29,823 bases of DNA from positions 1 to 29,823 of the forward strand of contig JAFGQA010000409.1 in assembly GCA_016935885.1 (NCBI GenBank), given 5' to 3'. Below are positions 148 to 29,823 of this stretch, piece by piece; position 1 is the first letter of the stretch; each line of letters starts with the position of its first letter. The notes under the pieces were generated by a model. It was not told where the DNA came from. It saw only the letters and a program-made list of their open reading frames with translations, and did no database searches. The position numbers and the translations under genes are program-made. This DNA is from Phycisphaerae bacterium. Its GTDB lineage: Bacteria > Planctomycetota > Phycisphaerae > UBA1845 > UTPLA1.

Positions 148-209
148 GTGCCACGGGCAGCCTGCCTGCCCGTGCGCACTGGCGGGCGAGCCGCCAGTGG
201 CACACGTCA
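148..209 (+). repeat. Family A palindromic element, compact copy
   Basis: An outer stem GTGCCAC/GTGGCAC encloses two hairpins, ACGGGCAG...CTGCCCGT and CACTGGCGG...CCGCCAGTG, and the copy ends in GTCAC. It lacks the roughly 30-nt spacer found between the hairpins in longer copies. It is a member of the dispersed family whose best copies are at 3926-4057 and 7710-7850. Confidence 0.75.
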
Positions 210-2206: not shown

Positions 2207-2380
2207 GGGAAGGAATCGCGCCTGCACGGCTGGGGTCCGCGACGTTTCCGACGGCATTCGATTCTGGGTGCCACGGGCGGCTTGCCCGCCCGTACGGTCT
2301 CTCCGGTGGCATGGGGCACGCACACTGGCAGACAAGCTGCCAGTGGCACCCGCCCGGGAAAGGAATCGCGCCTGCGCGGC
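2207..2380 (+). repeat. Family A element flanked by a 24-bp near-perfect direct repeat
   Basis: The element body (2235-2354) reads outer stem GGGTGCCAC, hairpin CGGGCGG...CCGCCCG, the spacer GGTCTCTCCGGTGG, hairpin CACTGGCAG...CTGCCAGTG, and closing GTGGCACCC. It begins with a degraded terminus GTCCGCGAC and lacks the right terminus. It lies between two direct copies sharing GGAATCGCGCCTGC (about 2207-2230 and 2355-2380). The 2125-2480 interval otherwise holds nothing I can support. Confidence 0.7.
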
Positions 2381-3860: not shown

Positions 3861-3925
3861 AGGGATTACCTCCTCTCTCAACATTCCCCCAACAACAGGT
3901 CAAATCGCGTCCATGACAGTCCAGA

Positions 3926-4057
3926 CGGGTCCGTGACGGTTTATGTGGGTGGCACTGGCAGCTCGCCTGCCCCTTGCGCCTACCGGAGAGACCTCGCGGG
4001 CGGACAAGCCGCCCGTGGCACCGAGGATCGAATGCCGCCGGAGGTGTCACGGACCCG
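3926..4057 (-). repeat. Family A element with perfect 12-bp terminal inverted repeats
   Basis: A complete-looking 132-bp copy in reverse orientation. The left end CGGGTCCGTGAC (3926-3937) is an exact inverted repeat of the right end GTCACGGACCCG (4046-4057). Inside are GTGGCACTGGCAG, a degraded hairpin, CTACCGGAGAGACC, then hairpin CGGGCGG...CCGCCCG and GTGGCACC. No transposase is encoded, so the architecture is that of a non-autonomous miniature element or REPIN-like palindrome pair. It interrupts the tail of a small ORF. Confidence 0.8.
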
Positions 4058-4234
4058 GTCAAACCAGGCGGCAATGACCTCAACTGGATGCCGCATAGAA
4101 TCGTACAACAGAACATCGCAGGGGATGCACCCTTCCTGCGATTCGTCTAACTGAATCCCTGCAAGCCGCAACGATGGATCGTTCAACGATTCGCGACCGC
4201 GCTTCGCTCGGCCCCGCCACCCTGTCGAATTCAT
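3980..4234 (-). CDS. Short coupled ORF whose C-terminus is family A repeat sequence
   Basis: The ATG at 4234 overlaps the stop codon of the upstream zinc-ribbon gene as ATGA, the classic arrangement for translational coupling. The first 59 codons, up to AWFD, read like real protein (SLRLAGIQLDESQEG, CDVLLYDSMRHPVEVIAA). The remaining 25 codons lie inside the palindromic element that starts at 4057 and end at a TAG within it. I infer that element insertion replaced the original C-terminus, leaving a truncated or chimeric product. No family is recognised. It may be a broken gene rather than a functional one. Confidence 0.4.
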   Translation of the reverse strand: MNSTGWRGRAKRGRESLNDPSLRLAGIQLDESQEGCIPCDVLLYDSMRHPVEVIAAWFDRVRDTSGGIRSSVPRAACPPARSLR

Positions 4235-7029: not shown

Positions 7030-7255
7030 CTGCGTGACTCCCTTTCCACTAGACATGGACACATTCCCGATGCGCCGTGCATCGAATCTCTTCGAACCAT
7101 CTTGGGACGCAACGTTGAAGCATCGAGGCGGCCAGTCATACCGGCCCGTGTGCCTCTGTTGCCCACTACAAGAAACGCAAGCACAACAGTCGCCTAACGG
7201 GGAAAAATCGTCTCGGCTCAAGCCCGGGATGCGTGAACCCGACCGGCCATCTGGC

Positions 7256-7352
7256 AGCCCGTGGTGAAAGGGAAGACAGCGGTTCGGAAACGCCGTTCCT
7301 GACCGTGGAAACCACCGGCTTTGGCGCCGGTGCCACGGTTTTGCCACGGGCT
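7256..7352 (+). repeat. Family B element with 9-bp terminal inverted repeats
   Basis: The best-preserved family B copy. The left end AGCCCGTGG (7256-7264) and the right end CCACGGGCT (7344-7352) are exact inverted repeats. Inside, CCGTGG...CCACGG encloses a CACCGGC...GCCGGTG stem, so the transcript would fold as nested hairpins. It lies just upstream of sppA. No coding capacity. Confidence 0.8.
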
Positions 7353-7524
7353 ACTAGGCGTGCCCCGGCGCAGAGGGCCTGGCTGGTTTTCAGGCTCAGA
7401 CCGCTGGGTCGAGGCGTGAACGGGGCGGTTCCGATCACGGGGCGAATGCGGATTCTTGGGTATTCCGACGCAGAAACCCGATTCGGCCACCCCTGGCCAG
7501 AAGGAAGAGGCCGATTTCTCGCCT

Positions 7525-7699: not shown

Positions 7700-7860
7700 C
7701 ACGCACGCGGGTCCGTGACGCTTCCGGCGGCATTCGATCTTGGGTGCCCTGGGCGGCTTGTCCACCCGTGCGGTCTCTCTGGCGGACGCATGGGGCATCC
7801 ACACTGGCAGGCAAGCTGCCAGTGGCACCCGCCTAAACTGTCACGGACCACACGCACGCG
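7700..7860 (+). mobile_element. Family A miniature element with a flanking 10-bp duplication
   Basis: The left terminus GGTCCGTGAC (7710-7719) and right terminus GTCACGGACC (7840-7849) are exact inverted repeats. The ten bases CACGCACGCG occur directly outside both ends (7700-7709 and 7851-7860, with one extra A on the right), as expected for a target-site duplication. The interior follows the family pattern: CTTCCGGCGGCATTCGAT, GGGTGCC, a GGCGGCTTGTCC hairpin, GGTCTCTC, and a CACTGGCAG...CTGCCAGTG hairpin. It is non-coding and would need a transposase supplied in trans. The element call rests on this one clean duplication plus the multiple copies. Confidence 0.6.
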
Positions 7861-12639: not shown

Positions 12640-12703
12640 TAGCGTGGAAGGGGTCCGCAACGCATTCGGCGGGCGTGTTGAAGGAAAGGGGCCACGGGGC
12701 AAG

Positions 12704-12780
12704 CACACTGGCAGGCAAGCTGCCAGCGTGTGTGTCCCATGTGCCCACCAGAGGGACCGCATGGGTGGACAAACCGCCGT
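12704..12780 (-). repeat. Family A element, divergent copy
   Basis: Contains the hairpin CACACTGGCAG...CTGCCAGCGTGTG (12704-12732), the spacer CCCACCAGAGGGACCGCATG, and GGTGGACAAACCGCC, matching the reverse orientation of the family. The terminal inverted repeats are not recognisable. Confidence 0.6.
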
Positions 12781-12801
12781 ACGTGTTAAGCGGGGTGGCA
12801 T

Positions 12802-12911
12802 GGGTAAGCGGAGCCGCCAGCGGCGGCGGAGCTTACCCGTGGGCATCCGTTCGAGCCTGTTCTCACGGGTAATGAACGACCCGCCCCTCGGGGGCGGATC
12901 GTTCGTTACCC
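12802..12911. repeat. Two long hairpins with GGGTAA/TTACCC ends between convergent genes
   Basis: At 12802-12838 the arms GGGTAAGC/GCTTACCC enclose a GCCGCC/GGCGGC core. At 12867-12911 the arms GGGTAATGAACGA and TCGTTCGTTACCC enclose a GCCCC/GGGGC core. They share the same hexamer ends. They sit between the convergent sulfatase-family and tricorn genes, so they could act as a bidirectional transcript end, although no T-run is present. Confidence 0.6.
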
Positions 12912-13009
12912 ATTCCACGCCGACGCATGCCACGCCGTTCGAACGCTAAACACGTACGAGCCGCCCGTGTTCACTGGCGGGCGGGCCGCCGGTGACCGCC
13001 GCAGACCCA

Positions 13010-16396: not shown

Positions 16397-16541
16397 GCGT
16401 ACCCTCCCTTTCTGAGAACAAGATAATCCCTATGATGAAAACGGAGCCGACGCGACGGACGCACGCGCCGAAGTCACGATTGTACAGAATCTGCCCCACG
16501 GGCTCCAAGATGAGATTGGGCACCACAGGCCGGGCGGGTGC

Positions 16542-16716
16542 GTGACAGCTTGGGCGGGTGCGTGACAGCTTGGGCGGGTGCGTGACAGCTTGGGCGGGTG
16601 CCACTGGCAGCTTGCCTGCCAGTGTGTGTGCCCCACGCGCCCACCGGAGAGATCGCACGGGTGGACAAGCCGCCCGTGGCACCCAGAATCGAATGCCGCC
16701 GGAAGTGTCACGGACC
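16542..16716 (-). repeat. Family A element with its end tandemly triplicated
   Basis: The reverse-oriented copy ends at GTCACGGACC (16707-16716) and contains both hairpins (CACTGGCAGCTTGCCTGCCAGTG and CGGGTGGACAAGCCGCCCG). Its left end, GTGACAGCTTGGGCGGGTGC, is repeated with a strict 20-bp period from 16542, 16562 and 16582 before running into the element body. This looks like slippage or stepwise duplication of the terminus. Confidence 0.8.
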
Positions 16717-16805
16717 GGGGCCGGGCCCACTCGAATAGCACTCAGCCGACGCCGAAAATCCGCAACGTTGCCGTTAGGAGCCTCACCGCACGGATGGAAC
16801 GGCGC

Positions 16806-16924
16806 GTGGCACTGGCAGCTTGCCTGCCAGTGTGCACGCCACATGCGCCCACCGGAGAGACAGCACGGGCGGGCAAGCCGCCCGTGGCACCCAAAATCGA
16901 CTGCCGCCGGAAGCGTCACGGACC
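16806..16924 (-). repeat. Family A element, reverse copy
   Basis: Runs from GTGGCACTGGCAG through CACCGGAGAGACAGCACGG and the CGGGCGGGCAAGCCGCCCG hairpin to GTCACGGACC at 16915-16924. The left terminus is lost. It has the same orientation as the copy ending at 16716 and lies 90 bp away. Confidence 0.8.
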
Positions 16925-16960
16925 CCAAGCCGTTGGACGCGTCGATCGGCTATCTGGAAC

Positions 16961-17019
16961 CACGGGCGGACGGCACTGGCAGGCAAGCTGCGTGTGGCAC
17001 CCACCCAAACTGTCACCGA
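16961..17019 (+). repeat. Family A element, half copy
   Basis: Retains CACGGGCGG, CACTGGCAGGCAAGCTG, GTGGCACCC and a right end close to CCAAACTGTCACCGAC. It is in forward orientation, facing the two preceding copies. Partial and degraded. Confidence 0.6.
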
Positions 17020-17060
17020 CGCCGACTCCACGCCGCGGGGTGCGCCTCTCAGCAGCCCAG

Positions 17061-17154
17061 GATAAACAGGAAAACAGTGGTTCGGGAACGCCGTTCCTGA
17101 CCATGAAAACCACCGGCGAGACGCCGGTGCCACAGCTTTGCCACGGGCTGTTGG
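17061..17154 (+). repeat. Family B inverted-repeat element, copy 3
   Basis: Matches the other family B copies over about 94 bp (CGGGAACGCCGTTCCTGACC, AAAACCACCGGCG, TTTGCCACGGGCTG). The inner stem CACCGGCG...CGCCGGTG carries compensated differences from the other copies (GAGA replacing TTTG in the loop), which favours retention of the hairpin. From 17155 to 17399 I see no further element. Confidence 0.75.
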
Positions 17155-19725: not shown

Positions 19726-19809
19726 GGGTGCCACTGGCGGCTTGTCCGCCAGTGTTTTGTGAGGAATCGCGTGCAAGATCGCACTGGCAGCAAGCTGCCA
19801 GTGGCACCC
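19726..19809 (+). repeat. Family A element, short copy with intact outer stem
   Basis: The outer stem GGGTGCCAC (19726-19734) and GTGGCACCC (19801-19809) is perfect. It encloses ACTGGCGGCTTGTCCGCCAGT and CACTGGCAGCAAGCTGCCAGTG, so the single strand would form a three-way junction. The spacer contains AGGAATCGCG, which also occurs in the flanks of the 2235-2354 copy. Confidence 0.75.
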
Positions 19810-19854: not shown

Positions 19855-20024
19855 GCTGGTGCGAGAATCCCTTCCCATCGCTTGCGAGGCCGCAGGCTGG
19901 TGCGAGAATCCCTTCCCATCGCCTGCGAGGCCGCAGGCTTGTGCGAGAATCCCCTCTCCCACCCCTCCTCAGCGGGAATCCCTTCCCAAACTCGCCAGCG
20001 AGGACCGAGAAAGGACTCTCGGTC
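19855..20024. repeat. 41-bp tandem repeat plus hairpin
   Basis: A 41-bp unit carrying GTGCGAGAATCCCTTCCCATC and TGCGAGGCCGCAGG is repeated about 2.5 times from 19855, with starts at 19855, 19896 and 19937. The hairpin GACCGAGA/TCTCGGTC at 20003-20024 follows, matching the pair at 17-70. It sits just beyond the stop of the minus-strand gene ending at 20040. Confidence 0.75.
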
Positions 20025-20039: not shown

Positions 20040-21386
20040 TCAATCGAAGTAGGACGGGTACACGCGCGCTTTCGTCTTCCGCCTCTGGTACGCCCGGGCC
20101 AGGTCCAGGAAGATTTCCAGGTCGCGGTCGATGTTGGTGTTCACGCCGTCGAAATAGAGCGTGCGGATGGGCAGGTCGTCGTGGGCCTCGCTGACGGACG
20201 GGTAGATCGCCTCGCAGATGACGCCGTTCATGCAGGTAAACGGACTGATGTCGATAATCCCGTCGGCCCCCTTTCCGTGCAGGTAGATCGCCTTGCCCAC
20301 GCTGAGCACCATCTCGCCCAGGCAGCCGTCCGACGGCAGGTAGGGACTCGACGCCGCCAACACCTCGCGCACGTCGTGCGGCTCCTCGTACCCACGCAGG
20401 TCCTCCTTGACGGGTGCCAGCAAGGCGTGCTCATACTTGTGCTGGATGTGCGTCTTGATCTTCAACTTCAGGAGGTCAGTCGTCGTGCCGAGGACCGCGT
20501 TTGCCGCGCCGAGAATCCCTTCACGGCGCCAGCCCAGCCGCCGGCGCTCTTGCCGAATGTCCTCCTCCTGGCCCCAATTCGTGTACCAGACCCATTCGGC
20601 AATGTCGGAAATCCAGCATTCGCCGCCGTACCGCTCGATCCGCCGGGCCACGTCGTCGTTGCTGAACGTGTTCAGCCGGCAGAAGATCTCGCCCACCAGC
20701 CCGATCAGCGGGCGCCCCTTCTCGTACCGCGCGGGGACATTGCGGAACCGATCCCGCATTCGCTCCACCCCGGCGACCAAGTCGGCCAGCCGCTGCTTCG
20801 GCTCCAAGCCCGGCCGCTCAACTAGCCGGTCGAACGCGTCAATGGACTGATGGAACGTCTCGTCGGCGTCGCCGGCGATCTTCTCGTATGGCCGCGTCTT
20901 CAGCAGGAATCGCGTCAGCAAATCCCCGACGACCAGACCCATCCACGCCGTCCGCATCATCTCCGACGCCTGCTCGCCGAGGCCGTCGTAGCCGTTTCGG
21001 CTGGACGGCGACAACACCGGCACGTCGCCGTGGCCCAGCTCCGCCAACACCTTCCGCAGATACGGCGCGTACTGCCCAAACCGGCACGGCCCGTGCGCCG
21101 TCGGCATGAAGAACGCCGTCTTGTTCGGGTCGAATCCCGGCGAGCGGCAGATCTTCAGGAAATCGCCGAGCGTCACCTTGTGCGGCAGGCACTCCTCGCC
21201 GCTGCTGAACAGCCCGCCCAACTCCAGCGTCTGGGGATCCGACTCGGGCGGCAGCGCCGCCTCGACGCCGATCGACCGGAACGACGCGGCCATCATCCGG
21301 GCACCGGCATAGGACATCGGGGGGATGTAGAGCGTTCGTCCCGCAAGACTCTGTCCGCCTGTTCGTCTTTCCGCTGTCGCCACCAT
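20040..21386 (-). CDS. C-terminal (DUF2229/HgdB-like) part of a CoA-dehydratase activase system
   Basis: A 448-residue protein. In many bacteria this sequence is the C-terminal third of a single chain of about 1400 residues (BcrAD-BcrAD-DUF2229-HgdB-like). The ATG at 21386 has AAGGGG 8 nt upstream, and the conserved GRTLYIPPMSYAGA begins at about residue 17. Typical motifs follow: SSGEECLPHKVTLGDFLK, FFMPTAHGPCRFGQY, GEIFCRLNTFSNDD, and SPFTCMNGVICEAIYP with conserved cysteines (possible iron-sulfur ligands). It overlaps the upstream gene by 94 nt and lies in the frame reached from it by a -1 shift. It is either a separate, translationally coupled subunit or the product of fission, frameshifting or a sequence error. 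Family role: ATP-driven electron transfer to 2-hydroxyacyl-CoA dehydratase-like enzymes; the substrate is unknown. Confidence 0.85.
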   Translation of the reverse strand: MVATAERRTGGQSLAGRTLYIPPMSYAGARMMAASFRSIGVEAALPPESDPQTLELGGLFSSGEECLPHKVTLGDFLKICRSPGFDPNKTAFFMPTAHGPCRFGQYAPYLRKVLAELGHGDVPVLSPSSRNGYDGLGEQASEMMRTAWMGLVVGDLLTRFLLKTRPYEKIAGDADETFHQSIDAFDRLVERPGLEPKQRLADLVAGVERMRDRFRNVPARYEKGRPLIGLVGEIFCRLNTFSNDDVARRIERYGGECWISDIAEWVWYTNWGQEEDIRQERRRLGWRREGILGAANAVLGTTTDLLKLKIKTHIQHKYEHALLAPVKEDLRGYEEPHDVREVLAASSPYLPSDGCLGEMVLSVGKAIYLHGKGADGIIDISPFTCMNGVICEAIYPSVSEAHDDLPIRTLYFDGVNTNIDRDLEIFLDLARAYQRRKTKARVYPSYFD

Positions 21387-24300
21387 CGCAGGATCCCCTT
21401 GCTGTCCAAATAGGCCTCGCACCGCGTCATCATGCCGGCGTCGTTCGAGTGTCCGTCGAACTGCAACGTCAGATAGGGCTTGCCAGACGCGAGCCGAATG
21501 TACGCCTTGAGGTACGAGTCCGGCCCACACTTGAAGTTCGTGATGTAGATGATGTGCAGGTTTGGATGTTCGGCAACGATCTTGGCTGCCGCGAGGATCT
21601 TCCGGCCGTACTCCCAGTACATGTTGTCGTTCACGTCGCGGACATCCACATCCGCCACCGGCAACGCATCGATCGGCAGGACGTTGACGCCATAGAAGTC
21701 GCGCAGCTTCCTCGCGACGGAGATGTTCAAACCCGCGTCATGGATGTTGTACGGCCGCCCGACGAGAACCATGCCGCTCTCGCCCGTCCGCTGGAGCGTG
21801 GCCAACGCCTCGCGACCGGCCTGCTCATAGGCACAGCGGAACCTCCGCTGCGCCGCGATGGCGGCATCGAACGCCCGCTCGGCCACGACCCGCCGGACGC
21901 CCAGGTCGCGCACCGTCTGAACAAGCCCCTGCCGCGCGTGTTCGATGCCCTCGCGAAGCTCGAGCCTCGGGCACAGAATCCGCCCGCCCCACGACCGGAA
22001 CGGCGGGGCCTGCCGCACGACGAACGGCAGCGTCTGCCCCCATGGGCAGACGTGGCTCTCGTTGTCCAGGAACTTCGTCTCGGTGGACAGGATATTCGGC
22101 AGCCAGATGTAGTCCACGCCCTTCTCGACAAGATCGGCCACGTGCCCGTGGGCGACGATGATCGGGAAGCATGGCTCTGCCACCGCGGCGTCGAGCCCCA
22201 GTTGCACGATCCGCTTGTTGGTCTCCGTGGACGTCACCACGACAAACCCGCAATCGCGGAAGAACCGCCGCCACAACGGCAACAGATCGAGCGTGTACAT
22301 CGCCATCGGAAGGCCGATCCGCACGGGTGTGGGGGCCCCATCCTCTCGCAGTTCAGGTGTGGGTGCCCCATCCTTTCGTAGAAAGGGTGGGGGCTGCGAA
22401 CACCGACTCCCACGGTCGTCATCATCGTCGGCGTGCAGCAACTCATGCCGCAGCGCGACGAGATCGGGAATCACCGGCTTGCGGTCGGTCTTGGCTCGCT
22501 TGCGATATCGGTCGGAGCACTTGTCGCCCCAGTACGTCTTCTCGCCCTCGACCTTGAACTCCTGCACCGAGCAGTGGTTGCCGCAGCCGTTGCAGGTGAA
22601 CTCGCGGAGGCCGTAGTCGATCTTGCCGACGTCGTACCCGCGGAACCGCGTGCCGCTTCCCGTCGCGGACACCTTCTCCTTCGCCAGCAGTGCCGCGCCA
22701 ATGGCACCCAGCACCGCGTTGTGCGGCGGCACGATGATCTCCTTGCCTGTGATCGCGCTGAACGCGGCGGCCACGGCATCGTTGTACGCCGTCCCGCCCT
22801 GGAAGAAGACGCAGTCGCCGATCCGACGCCCGCGGACGACGCGGTTGATGTAGTTGTACCCGATCGAATACGCGAGCCCCGCGATCACGTCCTCGCGATT
22901 CGCGCCGCGCTGCATGTACGCGTTCACGTCCCGCTCCATGAACACCGTACACCGCTCGCCGAGCTTGATCGGCGCCTTGGAACTCAACGCGAGTGCGGAA
23001 AACTCGTCCTTGATGGATACACCCAGCTCCTCGGCCCGCTCCTCCAGGAAGCTGCCGGTCCCCGCCGCGCAAGCCTCGTTCATCGTGAAGTCCACGACGA
23101 TCGAGTCGGTGGACAGCTCACGCAGAGGCGCAGAGGCGCGGAGATCGCTGCCAATGACATCCTCTGCGGTCTCTGCGCCTCTGCGTGAGGCTCCCTCGGC
23201 GGATGGCGGACTTACGATTGACGATTGACGATTGGCGATTGACGATTGCGGATGGCGGGTCTCGACGTTGTGGTGTTCTGACGTTTCAACGTTCTGGCGT
23301 TTCGACGTTTCGACGTCTTGACGTTTCGACGTTTCGACGTTTCGGCTTTCCGCTTCCAGGCTGATATACTTGCTGTCTTGCCCGCCGACCTCGAAGATCG
23401 TGTCCGGCCGCTTACCCAGCAGCCGATCGCCGACAAACGTCGCCCCGGTCTTGTGGGCCGTGATCTCATCGTTGATGCTGTCGGCGCCGACCAGTTCGCC
23501 GATCAACTCGCGGCCGCTGCCCGTGCTGCCGACGGCGCGGACCCGGACGCGCGAGCCCACCGCCTTCTCCGTCTCATGCAGGCACCGCGACACCACCTCG
23601 ATCGGCCGGCCCTCGGTCCGCGTGAAGATCGAGTGAATCACGTCGCCGTCGCCGTCAATCAAGACGAGCTTCGTGCCGACCGAGCCAATGTCCAAGCCAA
23701 GATAGGCATCAACGGTGTCGCCGTTCCCAGGCAGGACGTACTCCGTCACCCGGTCACGCAGGAGCTTGACATTCTCGAGGCTCAGCGGCGGCGACGTCGG
23801 GAACGCGTGCTGTCGAGCTTCCGGCTTTCGGTTTTTGCAGGAATCGAACTCGCTCGTCGCGTGCCATTGCTCTGCGAGCAGTGCCGCGTGCGCGCTGTTG
23901 ACACGACAGTGGTACCCGTGCATCGCCGCGCCGACCGCCGCCAACGACTCCGCCGCCTCCGGAACGAACAACGCCCCGTCCTCCACCTCGAAGGCCTCAC
24001 GCATCGCCTGCACGACGGCCGCGTTTGCCGAGACGCCGCCGATAAACGCGATCGGCGCTACCGGTGTGCGGCCCCTCACGACCGCCGACTTGTAGTTCGT
24101 CGCCACGGCATTGCACAACCCGCGCAACACCTCCGGCGGCGTAAAGCCCTTCTGCTGGGCGTGGATCATGTCGCTCTTGGCAAAAACGCTGCACCGGCCC
24201 GCGATCTGCGCTGCCCGCGCGGCACCCTTCACGATCATGCCGATGTCCTCGACCGCGTGTTGAAGCCGCGACGCCTGCTGGTCCAGAAACGCCCCCGTTC

Positions 24301-24781: not shown

Positions 24782-24952
24782 TTTCTACACCGTCCCGATC
24801 CGTGTCGTTCCGGCCACCGTTGCGCCGCGGCAGCTCCCAACCAGCAGCGTTTTCACTGCGAACTCGGCGCAAGTTTGTACCTACTAACTTACCGCACGTC
24901 AACAGGATTCTGGCATCCACTACGCGATTGGGTGTACGTCACGACGGCAGGA

Positions 24953-25258
24953 GCCCCCGGCCAAGGCCGGGGCGTTGCGTGAAAAACGCGCAATGCAACG
25001 CGATTGCACTTGGCTCGTCAAGGTGCCCCCCGGCCAAGGCCGGGGGCTCTTGTCGTTAGATCTCGCATTTTTCCAACCGCACCAGCGGCCAGAAGGCCGC
25101 CTGGACTGTCGCGGACCCTCCACCACTAAGCACAATGGGACGTCACGGCCACGGCGCCCCAGCCGACGGCCCCCGGGCAGGCGAAGCAGGCAGCCGCCTA
25201 AGCACAATGGGACGTCACGGCCACGGCGCCCCAGGGGCGTCATGCCCAGGCCAGGCAT
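24953..25258. repeat. Palindromes and 37-bp direct repeat in the 24782-25416 gap
   Basis: GC-rich hairpins CCCCGGCC-AA-GGCCGGGG occur at 24953-24973 and 25025-25047, in contexts that are inverted relative to each other. A 37-bp exact direct repeat beginning CTAAGCACAATGGGACGTCA lies at 25126-25162 and 25198-25234. A CATGCC...GGCATG hairpin follows at about 25240-25258. No gene is supported here. The upstream regions of both the activase gene and the c-di-GMP cassette lie within this gap; I see no convincing promoter. A small hairpin GCAGAG-CAA-CTCTGC lies at 25375-25389. Confidence 0.75.
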
Positions 25259-29526: not shown

Positions 29527-29632
29527 GGACCTCCTCCCGAAGGCGAAGCGCCAATCAAAGTGGCCGTTCCCGGATAGGCTACCCAACGGACCTGAAACGT
29601 GCAAGGTAGTCCGGGACAACGCCGCCAACGTG

Positions 29633-29768
29633 GACCCGTGACACTTCCGGCGGCATTCGATTGCGGCGGCATCCGATGATGGGGGCCACGAGCGGCTCGC
29701 CCGCCCGTGCGATCTCTCCGGTAGCGCATGGGACATACACACTGGCAGGCAAGCTGCCAGTGGCACCC
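29633..29768 (+). repeat. Family A element, forward copy
   Basis: Starts at GACCCGTGACACTTCCGGCG, has the hairpin CGAGCGGCTCGCCCGCCCG, the spacer GATCTCTCCGGTAGCGCATG, and ends with CACTGGCAG...CTGCCAGTGGCACCC. The left end retains most of the terminal repeat; the right one is lost. It lies just upstream of the FHA gene. The rest of 29527-29823 shows nothing else. Confidence 0.75.
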
Positions 29769-29823
29769 AACGCCGTGAACTGGCGTGGGTTGTGGTTGAT
29801 TGTAAGTGACTGCAAGGAATGAA

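Follow-up and report, generated by a model that had tools for sequence, protein, structure and literature searches.

The family A repeats of this stretch of DNA (the window, 29,823 nucleotides from a Phycisphaerae bacterium) are very probably composite elements, that is, a shell related to an ISKra4 insertion sequence (IS) and moved in trans, with a REPIN inside. The shell would be a non-autonomous element with the 22-bp ends of an ISKra4-related IS (Mutator superfamily, DDE), on which the IS transposase would act in trans, with a 9-bp staggered target cut. The interior would be a REPIN, made of inverted REP hairpins of a kind that a different shell also carries and that flanks a REP-associated tyrosine transposase (RAYT, HUH). 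A transposase of the parent type would have moved the present copies, and the REPIN would have entered a single time, through end capture or an insertion of the RAYT type, and the composite would have multiplied only afterwards. The original prediction, of a MITE or REPIN-like family mobilised by an enzyme elsewhere, is supported on both counts, as a REPIN inside a MITE for which we infer the mobilising enzyme.

Copies in the window and in relatives

Repeats are present, above chance, at all ten positions at which copies had been predicted. Self-comparison of the window pairs 7710-7849 with 16577-16716 as inverted copies (140 nt at 89%), and GGTCCGTGAC with at most one mismatch occurs 13 times against 4.4 expected, a count reached in 0 of 100 shuffles. 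According to a weight matrix built from 27 ends (from the window and from loci of the MAGs G001, G003 and G004, introduced below), the terminal inverted repeat (TIR) is 22 bp long, GGGTCC[G/A]TGACAnnnTnGGCGG, rather than 10. End-like sites scoring above 12 number 15 in the window and 0 in the reversed sequence. They delimit three shells of full length, five more that are truncated or decayed, and an extra end at 25097. The features are as follows.

7700..7708, no strand: left target duplication CACGCACGC
7709..7850, plus strand: full-length shell of 142 bp (22-bp TIR, spacer, REP, spacer, inverted REP, TIR), duplication 9/9
7742..7770, plus strand: REP palindrome 1, with a CACGGGCGG-type arm that has decayed here
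7802..7832, minus strand: REP palindrome 2, inverted, CACTGGCAG-type arm
7851..7859, no strand: right target duplication CACGCACGC
3907..4056, minus strand: full-length shell, outer TIR in tandem (3907 and 3927); flanks GGTCAAATC (3898-3906) and GGTCAAACC (4057-4065), duplication 8/9
16536..16717, minus strand: full-length shell, TIR three times in 20-bp steps (16536, 16556, 16576); flanks AGGCCGGGC (16527-16535) and GGGCCGGGC (16718-16726), duplication 8/9
2233..2356, plus strand: shell that keeps both REPs but, of its TIRs, only a decayed left one
16801..16925, minus strand: truncated shell with both REPs and TIR 16904-16925
16961..17022, plus strand: half shell with one REP and TIR 17001-17022
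29632..29771, plus strand: decayed shell with TIR 29632-29653 and both REPs
12651..12994, plus strand: decayed mosaic shell with TIR 12651-12672, a REP at about 12700-12728 and a REP-like stretch at 12963-12994; by reading, a different palindrome, GGGGTGGCATGGG, lies inside near 12795
148..208, plus strand: REP pair without 22-bp ends
19726..19807, plus strand: REP pair without the ends of either shell type
25097..25118, minus strand: TIR, outside the list of ten copies, of an additional shell-like element whose palindromic interior is of another type

The single plan proposed for all ten copies holds in full for three of them (7709-7850, 3907-4056 and 16536-16717), which have both TIRs; five keep one TIR (2233, 12651, 16801 with its end at 16904, 16961 with its end at 17001, and 29632) and two have none (148-208 and 19726-19807). 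The exact 12-bp inverted ends reported at 3926 and 4057 are there, as are the ten identical bases on either side of the 7710 copy (7700-7709 and 7851-7860), although with the border placed at 7709-7850 the duplication would be the 9-mer CACGCACGC (7700-7708 and 7851-7859). That no copy encodes a protein stands as regards the parent transposase, the sole protein compared. The outer 20 bp of one end are repeated in tandem, twice at 3907-3948 and three times at 16536-16597, perhaps by slippage between the GGGTGC of the end and the GGGTGC of the REP. The REP pair at 148..208 is possibly, from its sequence, a decayed copy of the second type of shell found in G001 (see below); the end-like AGTGCTCCAACA lies beside it at 219-230, a single match that is not significant alone. 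The TIR at 25097 has no clear second end and no clear duplication.

Several other repeats were observed. The shell at 2233, which has no right end, lies between near-identical direct repeats of about 24 bp (at about 2207-2231 and 2354-2378), with a GGAATCGCGCCTGC core by reading, which are longer than the usual duplication. At 24930-25118, the TIR at 25097 borders a palindrome pair of the GAGCCCCCGGCCTTGGCCGGGG type, the far end of which is doubtful. An exact 37-bp direct repeat is found at 25126-25162 and 25198-25234 (copies 72 bp apart), an 8-bp tandem array of CGTTTCGA-like units at 23258-23349 is overlapped by a long minus-strand ORF, and repeats around GAGAATCCCTTC, partly tandem with 41-bp units, lie at 19855-19936, 3-36 and 20493-20526.

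Outside the window, a scan for an end plus a REP gave 15 loci, 12 of them in five Planctomycetota MAGs (G001 to G005, three of which are labelled Phycisphaerae) and three in actinobacteria (L010, L013, L016), which were taken as chance. All five MAGs match the element at E 0.001, near full length only in G001, G003 and G004, and with only REP-sized pieces in G002 and G005. To judge from these matches, the host of the window probably belongs to the G001/G003/G004 group. With one mismatch allowed, CSMAG_386 (G003) has 231 occurrences of the 12-base end against 21 in the reversed control, and in G001 (46/22), G004 (55/23), G005 (18/20) and G002 (21/10) this end exceeds the control little or not at all. 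The strict 22-base pattern, found 102 times in G003, occurs in none of the other genomes of its family (17 examined) and is absent from 391 of 392 genomes of the phylum. A laxer pattern occurs in 11 of 12 genomes chosen for holding the transposase described below (reversed control 0 in all twelve). A search of plasmids gave no match; viral contigs gave one REP match and seven end matches.

The shell and its parent insertion sequence

As far as sequence can tell, the shell behaves as a MITE, because it carries 9-bp target duplications, has a nested insertion with an empty site and has parent-like elements in relatives. Fetched loci provided 59 inverted end pairs, 56 of which were kept (two of more than 1000 bp and one at a contig end were excluded). 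The 9-bp duplication is exact in 26 of these, and 31 of the 56 reach at least 8/9, against at most one in 1000 flank shuffles; by length, the exact duplications measure 9 bp in 26 pairs, 8 bp in four and 10 bp in two. The other 25 pairs stay at 7/9 or below when the border is taken exactly; letting it move by as many as three bases lifts 12 of them to 8/9, which brings the duplicated pairs to 43 of 56 against at most 3 in 300 control shuffles, and the remaining 13 show no duplication even then. The flanking duplication expected at full-length copies is hence found, at 9 bp and not at the predicted 10. The two tandem-end copies of the window are scored as failures within the 56-pair figures. 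With a laxer end score, further genomes of the order yielded another 17 shells, 13 of which match at 8/9 or better, against none in shuffles. In the window itself, the full copies reach 9/9 at 7709 and 8/9 at both 3907 and 16536, the latter two only if the border is set at the outermost tandem repeat, which was done once the inner one had given 5/9; random pairs of 9-mers from the window reach 8/9 in 63 of 200,000 draws. Two G003 end pairs, 1147 and 2738 bp apart (L087 and L084), were rejected as elements, the ORFs inside them not being transposases by eye (one is presumably purC), and were left out of the duplication count.

The nested copy, L093:832-1013, is inserted in another shell and bordered by GTGTCCGTG on either side, and its flanks, when joined, match uninterrupted shells (17 fetched loci, some overlapping) at 98.6% over 69 bp. 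The original prediction had looked to sister strains for occupied and empty sites; both are found here within one genome (G003), the empty site being paralogous, in other copies of the shell, and not in a sister strain of the window. Consistent duplication, non-random borders and an occupied/empty pair of sites, the three points on which the idea of a mobile element could have failed, were each tested and found.

Ends and proteins in relatives indicate that the parent of the shell is likely an ISKra4-related (Mutator-superfamily) IS. Of 392 Planctomycetota genomes, 70 have matches to the ISKra4 model (9 above cut-off). Five such elements in three genomes (L257, L267, L268, L269, L275) have GGG-starting ends and exact 9-bp duplications, most ends at the ISKra4 loci of this phylum sample differ from those of the shell, and the ends of the ISKra4 copy in G005 do not match it. 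In G297, two transposase C-termini adjoin shell-like ends, with scores of 15.7 and 19.1 where 3 of 712,016 background positions exceed 15. A search with the G297-type transposase in the order of G001 matched 36 of 114 genomes and led to four loci (L287, L288, L289, L290) in which both ends (scores 20.9-30.5, all outside the 27-end matrix) lie 1524-1541 bp apart around the transposase. Single ends stand beside the transposase at L247, L262, L291 and L292, the last two scoring 37.7 and 38.1. One of the four full-length parents has a matching duplication (L289, 9/9; L287 has 3/9, L288 2/9 and L290 4/9), and the ends of L290 start with AGG.

The best model for the parent transposase is NF033572. 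Scored on the catalytic ORF alone, with the two frames left unjoined, L287 reaches 200.2 bits, L289 176.2 and L247 170.2, all under the cut-off of 205; the catalytic ORF of L287 and L289 lacks the first ~100 model positions, and no Pfam match was found for it. An upstream ORF containing cysteines (CxxC motifs) lies in another frame in L287, L288, L289 and L290. The two frames, for the N-part and the catalytic part, overlap, and the step between them reads as +1 in 4/4; a programmed frameshift is possible. The transposase with matching ends that had been sought thus exists in relatives (L287-L290), but no intact one is present in G001, G003 or G004: at E 0.001, these fragmented MAGs hold no transposase relative in G003 (which has 102 ends) or G004, and one or two weak fragments in G001. 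Two other candidate parents, DDE_Tnp_1 (PF01609; 18 matches in three genomes) and Transposase_mut (PF00872; one fragment), were rejected, their loci being without the ends of the shell except for end-like sites at L123 and L131 (16.6) and a lone, partnerless end at L125 (27.2), about 1.4 kb from the transposase match.

The interiors and how they came into the shells

Shell and core are separable layers, since one shell encloses at least four mutually dissimilar palindromic interiors and one REP pair occurs in two shells. The largest interior group is that of the family A REP pairs, with 35 elements (34 of 130-152 bp, one of 230). Nine elements belong to a 182-bp type, five to a 161-bp type with TGTAGCG palindromes, three to a type of 359-387 bp and two to one of 267/392 bp, and three stand alone. 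Blastn at E 0.001 finds no similarity among the first four groups; the fifth has a 38-base edge in common with the third. In two further genomes, G449 has nine shells of 114-159 bp with a REP pair resembling that of the 182-bp type, and G473 has three shells of 323-346 bp with longer palindromes that do not match the first set. Folding reaches a z of -2.65 or lower in 9 of 11 interior representatives, the other two being at -0.18 and -2.0. A 78-bp shell at L183:5738-5815 looks like the 161-bp type minus most of its REP pair.

The second shell came from twelve G001 loci at which the element search had matched REPs only. None has a 22-bp end above score 8, and they were rejected as bare REPINs because all 12 sit in other flanks that they have in common; seven of the twelve have clear inverted AGTACTCCGACA-like ends. 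These ends, 135-137 bp apart, enclose a family A REP pair (L374-L385), with CT before and AG after in most copies. There are 19 AGTACTCCGACA-like ends in the twelve loci against one in the reversed control, and elsewhere their number is not clearly above control.

One insertion of a palindrome into a shell can be followed. A 98-bp palindromic element (L100:2702-2799) lies inside the left TIR of the shell L100:2684-2913, whose own 9-bp duplication is intact despite it. This palindrome is bordered by CTAG at one end and by TTAG at the other, and in its relatives the borders are often CTAR-like; it could be a DDE-type MITE in its own right, with a duplication of 4 bp. With YTAG on either side, L100 was not retained as a proven REP-type event; what its sequence shows is that palindromes insert into shells, not RAYT agency. 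Relatives of this palindrome, of about 99 bp and with the ends CAGCCCGTGG/CCACGGGCTG, lie in the window at 233-331, 7255-7353 and about 17052-17150.

REPINs in shells are apparently seen separately in the window/G001/G003/G004 group, in G449 (with its 182-bp-like core) and in G473. We tentatively propose, with somewhat less than even confidence, that DDE shells are recurrent vehicles for REPINs: REP pairs would enter them by insertion or capture, the composite would multiply and spread between genomes, and cores and shells would recombine. It is also quite conceivable, though we would not bet on it, that shell ends captured by chance REPs that are common between genes, with no insertion of REPs into shells. 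Such capture fits the several dissimilar REP types inside shells, the same REP pair in two shells, the fact that no empty family A scaffold was seen and the YTAG borders of the sole observed palindrome insertion, that of L100, but it sits less well with interiors that are mostly clean inverted REP pairs, unlike random intergenic DNA.

An ordinary deletion MITE, in which the hairpins derive from the IS itself, would be in keeping with four internal-deletion copies that bridge IS and MITE (L293, L294, L295, L337). IS sequence is present in 4 of 75 interiors, all in elements of 367-687 bp, and in a tblastn search the parent transposase matches only L293, L294 and L295 among the 75. The other 71 interiors do not align to the five IS sequences, save for three matches of 15-30 bases (E 0.003-0.007), and family A REPs are present in a second shell as well and flank a RAYT, all of which makes this origin improbable.

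The core of the composite consists of two REP hairpins in inverted orientation, each reading CAC[T/G]GGC[A/G]G, a CTTG[C/T]-like loop and the complement. The GT[A/G]G or CGTC tag is absent from the hairpin foot, where family A reads GGTGC (by reading); in the 161-bp interior type, the foot is TGTAGCG. The REP-associated tyrosine transposase that the original prediction suggested looking for was found in one relative, G001, in which an ORF (L097, G001:C65) matches NF047646 at 93.1 bits (cut-off 80) and Pfam Y1_Tnp at 24.8 (cut-off 23). A family A REP lies just downstream of it and an inverted REP pair just upstream, one upstream REP being imperfect and recognised by reading only; among 31 scanned Y1 loci (44 Y1 matches in all), this is the one with family A REPs on both sides. 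The Y1 loci L047-L076 and L097 have no 22-bp end above score 12, and so do not qualify as TIRYT/TIRtron. A RAYT flanked by the same REP, and a core that is an inverted REP pair, are what a plain REPIN family would show if the outer repeat were an extension of the REPIN and RAYT moved the whole. This we find very unlikely: 9-bp duplications are common, which to our knowledge RAYT-type insertion is not expected to leave, and the same outer repeat encloses dissimilar interiors and whole transposase elements.

That the hairpin arms vary together while staying paired, as the original prediction had it, is borne out by 43 distinct sequences chosen by foot, 5' arm and loop alone, in which 292 of 387 cells are paired (the highest count in 2000 shuffles is 286). 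Of the two variable pairs, one is paired in 36/43 sequences and the other in 31/43, against shuffle maxima of 32 and 28. This covariation supports pairing and leaves selection and hairpin-driven conversion undistinguished, and kinship may inflate the counts. The 7709 copy folds with a z of -3.8 as DNA and -4.4 as RNA. Immobile structured RNAs or terminators, for which this strong folding and the covarying arms could speak, are the least probable explanation of all, as no Rfam family matches at gathering score and duplications and a nested insertion argue for past mobility, a later RNA or terminator role for once-mobile repeats being still conceivable.

Relation to known elements and implications

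Both layers have known counterparts. Mutator-like superfamily elements have ends of 18-39 bp with a terminal C and produce 8- or 9-bp repeats, and Planctomycetes are among the groups listed (PMC3942029). The shell resembles the ISKra4, ISMich2 and ISAzba1 elements of p-MULT 4 (prokaryotic Mutator-like) in that its 22-bp ends fall in this range, with a terminal C/G and 8- or 9-bp duplications, and in that the transposase enclosed by such ends in relatives matches NF033572 better than any other model. It differs from the ISKra4 group in that the window copies are without transposase and the parents score under the NCBIfam cut-off. The ISMich2 group splits its reading frame by a -1 shift (PMC3942029), whereas the split of the present parent reads as +1. 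MITEAba12 (PMC6382973), of 113 bp, likewise has TIRs in common with a resident IS and 9-bp duplications, but its ends are different (of the GGCTTTGTTGCACAAA kind) and no REP cargo is described in the parts of PMC6382973 available to us.

As in REPINs or BIMEs with RAYT (PMC3733652, PMC6006769), there are two inverted REP hairpins and, in G001, a RAYT flanked by REPs; unlike them, the foot reads GGTGC rather than GT[A/G]G and many copies lie in an IS-derived shell with 9-bp duplications. A further counterpart of the composite are the REP dimers within outer palindromes of Anabaena variabilis and Halothiobacillus neapolitanus, in which the outer palindrome was never found without REPs, according to the available sections of PMC3733652. 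They too have a REP pair inside a longer palindrome. Those sections of PMC3733652 give no origin for the outer palindrome, whereas the present one is traced back to DDE IS ends and encloses several REP types.

No report of REPs inside ISKra4 MITEs was found in the open-licence literature searched, and within that scope the nesting, repeated with dissimilar REP types and with one REP pair in two shells, appears to be new. REPINs are generally regarded as dependent on a RAYT encoded by their own genome. If the present reading is true, (i) REPINs could travel without their RAYT, changing genome inside DDE shells, (ii) DDE shells with REPINs and duplications of their own would give a countable record of REPIN movement, (iii) the nested insertions would allow events to be ordered from sequence alone and (iv) IS-derived shells could be where the outer palindromes come from that were described in 2013 around REP dimers (PMC3733652).
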